The notes under the pieces are model-generated. The model was not told where the DNA came from, made no database searches, and saw only the letters and a list, made by a program, of their open reading frames with translations. Below are positions 14,158-16,268 of a stretch of 32,109 nucleotides of DNA, piece after piece. The stretch covers positions 1-32,109 of the forward strand of contig CALEHE010000107.1 of NCBI GenBank assembly GCA_937876415.1. The letters are read 5' to 3'. This DNA is from an uncultured Actinomycetes bacterium. Lineage in GTDB: Bacteria > Actinomycetota > Acidimicrobiia > Acidimicrobiales > Ilumatobacteraceae. The translations under genes were made by a program, and so were the position numbers. Every line of letters begins with the position of its first letter. The first letter of the stretch is position 1.

Positions 14158-14823
14158 ATGACCGCGGGCGTTCGTCTGATCATCATGGGTCGTCAAGGCG
14201 CAGGCAAAGGTACTCAATGCCAACGCATTTCACGGCACTATGTGGTTCCCCATATTTCGACGGGGGACATCTTGCGCGCTGCCGTACGTGAAGGAACTGA
14301 ACTCGGCAAGATGGCCAAGCAGGTCATCGAAGCTGGTCGCTTGGTGGGTGACGACATCATGATCGAAATTATCCGCGAACGTTTAGAGCAAGATGATGCC
14401 CGCACTCGGGGTTACATTCTTGACGGCTTTCCGCGGACGGTGGCCCAGGCCGTTGCACTTGACGGAATCGCGGCCGAACGGCCGATCCACAGCGTGCTCG
14501 ACCTTGATGTGCCTCGGGATTTGGTGATTCAGCGCATTTCGGCTCGACGCGTGTGCCGAGATTGTGGGACCAATTACGTGGCGACGGGGCAAAAACGGGA
14601 TCCCTGGATTTGTGACTCGTGTGGAGGAGACGTTGTTCAGCGCGACGACGACACCCCCGAAAGCATCAATCAGCGACTCGATCTCTATGAATCGCAGACG
14701 TCACCGTTGCTTGAGTTTTACGGTCAAGGCGGTCGTCTGGTGGAGATTGATGGATCGCTCTCGCCGGATGAAGTTTTTGAAGCTTTGACCGTGGCGATTG
14801 ATGTTGCTCGGACGAGCAGCTGA
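14158..14823 (+). CDS. adk: Adenylate kinase, zinc-lid type
   Basis: A 221-residue long-form adenylate kinase (AMP + ATP to 2 ADP). The P-loop is GRQGAGKGT (11-19), with Arg-Gln where most have Pro-Pro. The AMP-binding segment is HISTGDILR; the signature is LDGFPRTVAQA (88-98). The LID carries four cysteines, Cys133, Cys136, Cys152 and Cys155 (CRDC and CDSC), so it should bind zinc. No Shine-Dalgarno is obvious. In most bacteria map (methionine aminopeptidase) follows; here there is a 216-bp gap and then infA. Confidence 0.96.
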   Translation: MTAGVRLIIMGRQGAGKGTQCQRISRHYVVPHISTGDILRAAVREGTELGKMAKQVIEAGRLVGDDIMIEIIRERLEQDDARTRGYILDGFPRTVAQAVALDGIAAERPIHSVLDLDVPRDLVIQRISARRVCRDCGTNYVATGQKRDPWICDSCGGDVVQRDDDTPESINQRLDLYESQTSPLLEFYGQGGRLVEIDGSLSPDEVFEALTVAIDVARTSS

Positions 14824-14830
14824 GCGTGCT

Positions 14831-14839
14831 TGTGGATAA
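14831..14839 (-). other. Single consensus DnaA box
   Basis: TGTGGATAA on the + strand is a perfect TTATCCACA on the - strand, the strongest DnaA-binding 9-mer. It lies 8 bp after the adk stop. No second box was noticed nearby, so it is not an origin. A perfect 9-mer on either strand would turn up by chance about once in four windows of this size. Confidence 0.35.
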
Positions 14840-14927
14840 CTTTTCTTCAGATATTGCCACGACCGGCCGAGAATCCTGGGCTATGGTTTGGCTCCGAAAA
14901 GACTCCCAAGTTTCTGGCTCGAGGCAC

Positions 14928-14956
14928 TTGGTTCACTTGAGTCTCGGCGGTAGCAT
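14928..14956 (+). promoter_or_regulatory. Candidate promoter for the infA-alpha operon
   Basis: TTGGTT (14928-14933) and TAGCAT (14951-14956) are separated by 17 bp in the 216-bp gap between adk and infA. The -10 matches four of six and the -35 three of six consensus bases. The rest of the gap (14824-15039) shows no gene and no remnant of map. Confidence 0.3.
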
Positions 14957-15039
14957 TGCCCCTCGGTCCAATGGCCGACCCTGCACGCGTCCTTGTGGCG
15001 TGAAGCAGTGTGCAATATCCGCCCCGTTAGGAGTCAGTT

Positions 15040-15264
15040 CTGTCCAAGCCCAAAGACGACGCCATTTTACTCGAAGGAACGATCCTCGAGTCCCTGCCGA
15101 ACGCCATGTTTCGGGTGGAACTCGAGAACGGCCACAAAGTTTTGGCGCATATCTCCGGAAAGATGCGAATGAACTACATCCGTATTCTTCCTGGCGACAA
15201 GGTGCAAGTGGAGCTCACGCCGTATGACCTCACCAGAGGTCGCATCACGTACCGCTACAAGTAG
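15040..15264 (+). CDS. infA: Translation initiation factor IF-1 with CTG start
   Basis: A 74-residue IF-1. The OB-fold is plain: [20 protein letters not shown], the [17 protein letters not shown] segment and the ending SPYDL-like [16 protein letters not shown]-1 occupies the A site during initiation. The frame has no ATG, GTG or TTG near the N-terminus: a TAG stop at 15028-15030 closes it, leaving codons GAG, TCA, GTT, CTG before [15 protein letters not shown] 15040 gives the family's usual length (72-74) and lies 6 bp after a perfect AGGAG (15029-15033). This is therefore a rare CUG start. Standard gene finders would miss it. A sequencing error is possible but not needed to explain the pattern. 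Confidence 0.93.
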
Positions 15265-15276
15265 TTACAAGTAGTT
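15257..15276 (+). repeat. Tandem 10-bp direct repeat at the infA stop
   Basis: ACAAGTAGTT occurs twice head to tail, the first copy holding the infA TAG stop. It looks like a small local duplication in the 3' untranslated region and has no evident function. Confidence 0.6.
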
Positions 15277-15304
15277 ACCAAACATCGTAAATAGTCAGTA
15301 AAAC
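15275..15304 (+). promoter_or_regulatory. Weak promoter-like pair before rpmJ
   Basis: TTACCA (15275-15280) and TAAAAC (15299-15304) are spaced 18 bp, each matching four of six consensus bases, in the AT-rich 87-bp gap between infA and rpmJ. It could feed the alpha operon, but AT-rich gaps produce such matches by chance. Confidence 0.22.
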
Positions 15305-15351
15305 CAGTCTCTATTCATTCAAGAAATTCAACAACAAGAAGTGAGATGACC

Positions 15352-15465
15352 ATGAAGGTCAAACCAAGTGTTAAGAAAATCTGCGAGAAGTGCAAAGTGA
15401 TCCGCCGTCACGGCAGCGTCATGGTTATTTGCGAGAACCCGCGTCACAAGCAGCGTCAAGGCTGA
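15352..15465 (+). CDS. rpmJ: 50S ribosomal protein L36, zinc-binding
   Basis: A 37-residue L36 ([20 protein letters not shown]), exactly the family length and ending NPRHKQRQG. The zinc ligands Cys11, Cys14, Cys27 and His32 are all present. In-frame ATGs at 15346 and 15352 are both possible; 15352 reproduces the universal MKVKPSV start. GAAGTGAG lies upstream. The gene is too short for many gene finders. It stands between infA and rpsM as in most bacteria. Confidence 0.97.
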
Positions 15466-15485
15466 GAAGAGAATAAGGAAACAGC

Positions 15486-15863
15486 ATGGCCCGTATTTCT
15501 GGAGTTGACATTCCCCGCGAGAAGCGGTTGGAGATTTCGCTCACCTACATCTTTGGCATCGGCAAGCCGACTGCACAACGCATGTGCGCTGATCTCGACA
15601 TCAGTCCGAACACGCGTGTTCGCGACTTGACCGACGAAGAAGTCAACAAACTTCGTGGTTGGGTTGACAAGAACGTCACTGTCGAAGGTGACCTTCGCCG
15701 CGAAGTTCAGACCGACATCAAGCGCAAGATCGAAATCGGTTGCCTTCAGGGCGTCCGTCACCGTAAGGGCCTGCCCGTTCGTGGCCAGCGCACTCACACC
15801 AATGCTCGTACCCGTAAGGGACCGAAGAAGACCGTTGCTAACAAGAAAAAGGCAGTGAGGTAG
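15486..15863 (+). CDS. rpsM: 30S ribosomal protein S13
   Basis: A 125-residue S13 ([20 protein letters not shown]). The helix-two-turn-helix region [14 protein letters not shown], the signature [20 protein letters not shown] and the Lys-rich tail that touches P-site tRNA are present. It bridges the 30S head to the 50S subunit. AATAAGGAAAC precedes the ATG; rpsK begins 6 bp later. Confidence 0.98.
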
Positions 15864-15869
15864 TACATC

Positions 15870-16268
15870 ATGGCTAAGCCGAAGCCGGGCGGACGACGCC
15901 CCCGTAAGCGCGAGCGCAAAAACGTCAGCGTTGGTGTGTGTCACATCAAGTGCTCGTTTAACAACACCATCGTCAGCATCTCTGACACCGAAGGCAACGT
16001 TTTATCGTGGGCCTCAGGTGGCGGAGTTGGTTTCAAGGGTTCGCGCAAGAGCACACCTTTTGCTGCACAAATGGCAGCCGAAAAAGCAGCCAAGGCCGCT
16101 TTCGAACAAGGTATGCGTCGAGTTGAAGTGCACGCCAAGGGCCCAGGCTCTGGTCGTGATACTGCAATTCGTTCGTTGCAGAACACTGGCATCGAAGTGA
16201 CTGGCATCAAAGATGTCACGCCCGTGCCCCATAACGGCTGCAAGTTGCCTAAGCGGAAGAGGAACTAA
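15870..16268 (+). CDS. rpsK: 30S ribosomal protein S11
   Basis: A 132-residue S11. After a basic start ([20 protein letters not shown]) comes the conserved [19 protein letters not shown] and the ending [21 protein letters not shown]11 lies on the 30S platform near the exit site. It is 6 bp after rpsM and 3 bp before rpsD, the normal alpha-operon order. Confidence 0.98.

Follow-up and report, generated by a model that had tools for sequence, protein, structure and literature searches.

The infA gene in the window (the whole stretch of DNA analysed, 32,109 nucleotides long) raises the question of which codon begins the synthesis of translation initiation factor IF1 at the head of a ribosomal-protein operon, and of what a start other than ATG, GTG or TTG could do for the bacterium.

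The infA reading frame and its surroundings

The identity of the gene is clear. Its protein gave a full-length match to the NCBIfam IF-1 equivalog TIGR00008 (E 1.4e-38; score 130.7 against a cut-off of 61.15), with residues 5-73 covering positions 1-69 of the 69 in the model, and it was the single match to PF01176 in the genome (E 2.8e-28). The gene order adk-infA-rpmJ-rpsM-rpsK (Table 1) marks it as the infA of the alpha operon. The original prediction held that the frame is shut upstream by a TAG with no ATG, GTG or TTG before the conserved residues, and that a CTG lying 6 bases after an AGGAG yields 74 residues; both statements were confirmed from the window sequence. Following the TAG, the codons read GAG TCA GTT CTG TCC AAG CCC AAA GAC GAC, no in-frame ATG, GTG or TTG was found between the TAG and the conserved part of infA, and the first in-frame ATG encodes the M of NAMF, well within the protein, which ends at a TAG stop (15262-15264). 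Judged by its codon, infA would share with infC-type genes a start other than ATG, GTG or TTG. As well supported as sequence allows, infA of the window genome and of most genomes of the order examined is translated from CUG, which the ribosome of the window genome would decode as fMet.

Table 1. Features of the window discussed in the text and their coordinates.
Feature	Coordinates	Strand	Basis or remark
adk, adenylate kinase, gene upstream of infA	14158..14823	+	NCBIfam adenylate kinase models
TAG shutting the infA frame on its upstream side	15028..15030	+	
AGGAG, Shine-Dalgarno core	15029..15033	+	6 bases (15034-15039) ahead of CTG
CTG, infA start codon	15040..15042	+	position and conservation across the order
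infA, translation initiation factor IF-1, 74 aa plus stop	15040..15264	+	TIGR00008, PF01176
rpmJ (L36), ATG start, control gene	15352..15465	+	TIGR01022, E 6.3e-22
rpsM (S13), ATG start, control gene	15486..15863	+	ORF
rpsK (S11), ATG start, control gene for Shine-Dalgarno strength	15870..16268	+	ORF

We also searched the region for regulatory RNA and promoter signals. Rfam returned two matches only in 14600-15600, both below their gathering scores. One was to Alpha_RBS, the element of S4 repression of the alpha operon, which scored 19.8 bits against a gathering score of 38; this match surrounds the start of rpsM, not that of infA, and the region was not assigned to the family. The rpsM start (15463-15518, the span of the match) is where S4 control would be expected. 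Folding of 14980-15100 was ordinary (z -0.70), no sigma-70-type promoter match was found in 14780-15360, and with these results an RNA leader at infA was rejected.

Conservation of the CTG codon across the order

The check put forward with the original prediction was whether the CTG is conserved in close relatives, and it came out in its favor. We searched 24 genomes of the genus and read 18 loci, the other six giving no match or a cut match; CTG occupied the infA start in 18/18, which rules out a sequencing error at 15040. The preceding codon was GTT in all 18, and the spacer is thus common to close relatives. For the order, we compared 143 infA loci, which are a subset only (a single search detected infA in 284 of 297 genomes), at a column placed six codons before a conserved Asp with the codon itself not presupposed. 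CTG was found there in 117 of the 143 loci, and the column one codon upstream held 37 different codons. In 131 of the loci, hereafter the operon loci, rpmJ or rpsM lies downstream of infA, and here the starts were CTG in 120, ATC in five, TTG in three, ATA and GTG in one each, and ambiguous in one (L207, where ATG is one possibility); four of the 120 CTG calls were placed with an indel, and in loci with indels the Shine-Dalgarno sequence decided the start. CTG, ATC and ATA together thus account for 126 of the 131. Among named records kept outside these counts, CTG was found in L032-L038, L040 and others, TTG in L039 and ATC in L043, and infA of other phyla began with ATG, GTG or TTG where the start was clear.

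Similar results were obtained with a motif composed of the start and the N-terminus, which is strict, so that genomes matching neither form are uninformative on their start. With CTG, it matched in 218 of 397 same-order genomes; with ATG, it matched in none of the 397. Forms with CTC, CTT or CTA were absent from 94 genomes, 50 of which carried the CTG form (by eye). When the first base was allowed to be A, G or T, the second T and the third any base, 50 of the 397 genomes matched (by eye), with TTG in 31, GTG in nine, ATC in nine, ATA in one and no other codon. Genus g51 of family f35 (e.g., L188) contributed 18 of the 31 TTG matches from 19 sampled genomes, the remaining one matching neither form, and family f58 contributed 16 of the 50 (8 GTG and 8 TTG); L218, the sole f58 copy whose surroundings were examined, is flanked by neither rpmJ nor rpsM. 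Elsewhere in infA, at nine internal Leu columns, CTG made up 0-35% of the Leu codons, the commonest being CTC in seven columns, CTG in one and TTG in one.

Could the CTG be an internal leucine, with the real start at an upstream GTG, TTG or ATG or at a downstream codon? We scanned the 126 operon loci called as CTG, ATC or ATA from the upstream stop, or from 30 codons before the conserved Asp, to that Asp, and found some in-frame canonical codon in 34, which leaves room for such a start, and none in 92. However, 27 of the 131 operon loci have a stop no more than five codons ahead of the start column, and in L149 it directly precedes the CTG; the codons upstream of the CTG vary over the order, and the Shine-Dalgarno sequence stands at the usual distance from it. 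Together with the contrast between CTG and its synonymous leucine codons in the 94 genomes described above, these observations make a start elsewhere very improbable.

The CTG might, alternatively, have arisen once by an ancestral accident and been tolerated since, a strong Shine-Dalgarno sequence compensating for it. A single origin would fit its spread through the order, and the strength of the infA Shine-Dalgarno sequence (see below) could be such a compensation. Against this stands a tree made quickly for 220 operon loci; it used three proteins joined end to end, many of its branches are weak, and it covers 130 of the order's 131 operon loci. To account for the order's tips without CTG, of which there are 10 (five ATC, three TTG, one ATA and one GTG; L207 was unscored), this tree required 10 later changes. 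None of these led to ATG, and ATC or ATA stands at six of the ten tips. Both of these codons are two changes from CTG, and the one-step intermediates were not found, whether as ATG in the 397 genomes or as CTC or CTA in the 94. Since ATT or ATC, and ATA, also occur on infA in two other families (see below), we consider accident alone improbable. The CTG at the infA start is best read as maintained by selection, as far as comparison of sequences can tell.

Neighboring genes, infC and infA elsewhere

A general habit of starting genes at CTG was rejected by the two start controls, rpmJ and rpsM, the only genes used for this purpose since the rpsK and adk columns hold misplaced starts and were left out. 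The rpmJ column (from 15352) held ATG in 106, GTG in 22 and TTG in three of 131 loci of the order, and the rpsM column held ATG in 120 and GTG in 10 of 130; CTG was found in 0/131 and 0/130, respectively. On these two controls, infA thus shows the pattern of infC-type genes, i.e., an odd codon that relatives conserve, next to other genes with ordinary starts.

We then compared pairing with the anti-Shine-Dalgarno sequence. Among the genes compared, operon infA paired most strongly by median, at -10.2 kcal/mol (130 loci); medians were -7.3 for rpsK (109 loci), -6.5 for rpsM (129), -5.1 for rpmJ (130) and -4.0 for adk (26), and -3.2 kcal/mol at 390 random places. In the window itself, the values were -6.8 for infA, -6.2 for rpsM and -7.9 kcal/mol for rpsK, i.e., rpsK is stronger than infA. 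Since the window infA falls between rpsM and rpsK, the contrast in Shine-Dalgarno strength characterizes the group more than the window genome.

The gene for IF3, infC, could be compared in relatives; no infC match was found in the window's own assembly. A match was present in 36 relatives, of which 30 loci (L225-L254) were examined, and the aligned start was ATA in 24 and ATC in six (by eye). In 22 of the 30, the stretch leading from the upstream stop, or from 60 codons back, to the conserved core contains no canonical codon; the other eight have one.

In 12 of the 143 loci of the order, neither rpmJ nor rpsM was found in the infA flank. These copies are more diverged (60-78% identical), and their starts were TTG in four, GTG in four, ATG in two and CTG in two. 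We located rpsM elsewhere in 11 of the 12 genomes, and in these 11 no full-length infA was found in the available stretch upstream of rpmJ/rpsM (L375-L385); decayed infA remnants are present there in L378 and L380. It is therefore probable that infA departed from the operon in several families and that its start then became mostly canonical. As an observation in its own right, L375-L385 appear to record the relocation of an essential gene, a diverged copy of which stands elsewhere. Three genomes with infA outside the operon (L227, L241 and L252, with infA at TTG, GTG and CTG, respectively) still have infC at ATA.

Beyond the order, 45 operon infA loci from sister families of the class, with starts partly set by eye, showed CTG in 22, ATG in six, TTG in six, GTG in five, GTA in four (by eye), ATC in one and GTC in one (by eye), and 13 more loci of the class without operon context showed TTG in five, GTG in five, ATG in two and an unclear start in one. 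The apparent GTA and GTC starts belong to five sister-family loci, L257, L258, L259, L260 and L300, four with GTA and one with GTC; to our knowledge, neither codon is more than hardly known as a natural start. Several infA starts in the sister families are preceded by a AGGTGGTG-like motif rather than by AGGAGG.

Automatic calls for 59 infA loci of the phylum gave no start in 21, TTG in 15, GTG in 11, ATG in six, and ATT, ATA and CTG in two each; these calls were often doubtful, and only families examined by eye were used. Two families outside the window's class, f89 and f107, were examined further because the first look had given ATT and ATA. By eye, infA of f89 (L293, L337 and L386-L394) starts at ATT in 10 of 11 genomes and at ATC in one, and infA of f107 (L353 and L395) starts at ATA in both, with the reservation that in five of these 13 genomes another ATT, ATC or ATA directly precedes the chosen start. 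Starts at ATT, ATC and ATA are classically known from infC. Families f102, f90 and f105 have infA at GTG or TTG where the start is clear, and TTG, GTG or ATG was found in most automatically callable loci of the other phylum families, many loci being unclear.

Possible control of IF1 synthesis through the start codon

We consider it most likely, with a probability of about 0.55, that the selected CUG start of infA serves an infC-like negative feedback by initiation factors. The strong Shine-Dalgarno sequence would recruit the 30S subunit to a CUG whose pairing with fMet-tRNA is weak, so that IF1 synthesis would hinge on the start-codon stringency of the initiation machinery. When IF3 and IF1 are plentiful, IF1 strengthening the effect of IF3, the CUG would be rejected and IF1 synthesis would drop; with the factors in short supply, more complexes on CUG would mature and IF1 would rise. 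The downstream ribosomal-protein genes, which start at ATG, GTG or TTG, would be little affected. Under such a scheme, the levels of IF3 and IF1 would alter the rate of initiation at CUG, and feedback would be what selection maintains on infA. CUG ends in G and reportedly belongs to the codons that IF3 rejects in E. coli; this is knowledge of E. coli, not of the group studied here. In the available part of PMC4611024, AUG, GUG and UUG are described as spared by IF3 discrimination, other triplets not, and IF1 as acting on fidelity jointly with IF3. Lower stability and poor initiation are described for CUG initiation complexes (PMC11497404, available part), and IF3 in vitro prefers strong codon-anticodon pairs (PMC10158994, in whose available part CUG is not mentioned).

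Support for feedback comes from the strong Shine-Dalgarno sequence, from a codon of the class used by infC, from the replacement of CTG by ATC or ATA and from the parallel non-canonical start of infC, and two further families of the phylum, with infA at AUU/AUC or at AUA, also fit. The strongest median Shine-Dalgarno sequence on infA would be odd if low expression were the sole aim and is expected if the codon is the limiting step. Counting against feedback, infA has ATG, TTG or GTG in 6, 6 and 5 of the 45 operon loci from sister families of the class. Furthermore, TTG is not expected to be sensitive to IF3, and its presence in genus g51 indicates that feedback is not indispensable.

The main rival, and a serious one, is that the CUG simply makes the cell produce much less IF1 than ribosomal proteins from the same strong transcript, without any feedback, in which case any weak start would suffice. 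The position of infA at the head of a ribosomal-protein operon favors this explanation, as do the TTG, GTG or ATG starts in 10 of the 12 copies not found in the operon and the existence of a clade with TTG in nearly all sampled genomes (g51). The mostly canonical starts of infA outside the operon agree equally well with feedback and with a tie to the strong transcript of the operon. However, the three genomes of this kind in which infC was seen keep it at ATA, a weak Shine-Dalgarno sequence with ATG would brake synthesis equally well where infA instead has the strongest median, ATG was not called at any of the 131 operon loci (one being ambiguous), and the codons that replaced CTG include ATC and ATA, the choice of infC. 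We therefore regard a fixed low level as a real but rather doubtful explanation. The feedback proposed in the original prediction stands only in part: the Shine-Dalgarno strength, the infC-like codons and the ATC and ATA replacements agree with it, but most of the same evidence is also explained by a fixed low set point, which the TTG of g51 and the copies outside the operon favor.

An extension of the feedback reading, which we advance tentatively and at somewhat less than even odds, is that IF3 (from AUA or AUC) and IF1 (from CUG, AUC or AUA, and from GUA or GUC in sister families) form a two-gene rheostat, both being made from starts that they help reject, so that stringency would itself be regulated. 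Such an arrangement would have been conserved through the order, mostly lost where infA left the operon, and would have had separate AUU and AUA origins in the phylum.

Several known systems resemble that of infA. A eukaryotic start-selection factor, eIF1, reportedly regulates itself through its initiation context, and to that extent its own start site, too, takes part in its control, as far as the partly available account goes. Control of eIF1 acts via start context, not through a non-AUG codon, and the protein is unrelated to IF1. For self-control of an initiation factor via its start codon, the standard example is infC, which starts at ATT in E. coli, with autoregulation by IF3 (PMC5472188, available part), at ATC in Streptomyces (same source) and at ATT in Listeria (PMC13068326, available part). 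Like infA of the order, infC with AUU, AUC or AUA is an initiation-factor gene with a non-canonical start conserved clade-wide; it differs in encoding IF3, whereas infA encodes IF1, starts mainly at CUG and would be subject to feedback by analogy, the infC of its relatives having ATA or ATC. In Streptomyces, sigR has a GTC start and is repressed by IF3 (PMC5472188, available part); this, too, is an actinobacterial gene with a non-canonical start, and GTC and GTA recur in sister-family infA (by eye), but sigR encodes a sigma factor, not an initiation factor, and its dependence on IF3 is described there as measured. In the chloroplast, infA itself has a weak start, UUG, whose change to AUG raised translation 300-fold (Hirose 1999, cited in PMC9845219, available part); that gene is a plastid one, with UUG in place of CUG.

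We found no prior report of a CUG start on bacterial infA in the titles and abstract openings listed from a partial open-access literature with few subscription journals. Non-canonical infC starts and the UUG of chloroplast infA being already known, this survey suggests that an order-wide CUG on bacterial infA is new. If infA shares the device of infC, start-codon choice may be a general control point of the initiation machinery. The infA of this order offers a natural system for testing the level of IF1 against start-codon fidelity, and the TTG clade of genus g51 is one with which the CUG state could naturally be compared. Annotation restricted to ATG, GTG and TTG would likely misplace the start of the essential infA in this group. 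The infC of the order is also distinct in its own start, which is mostly ATA, unlike the ATT of E. coli or the ATC of Streptomyces.
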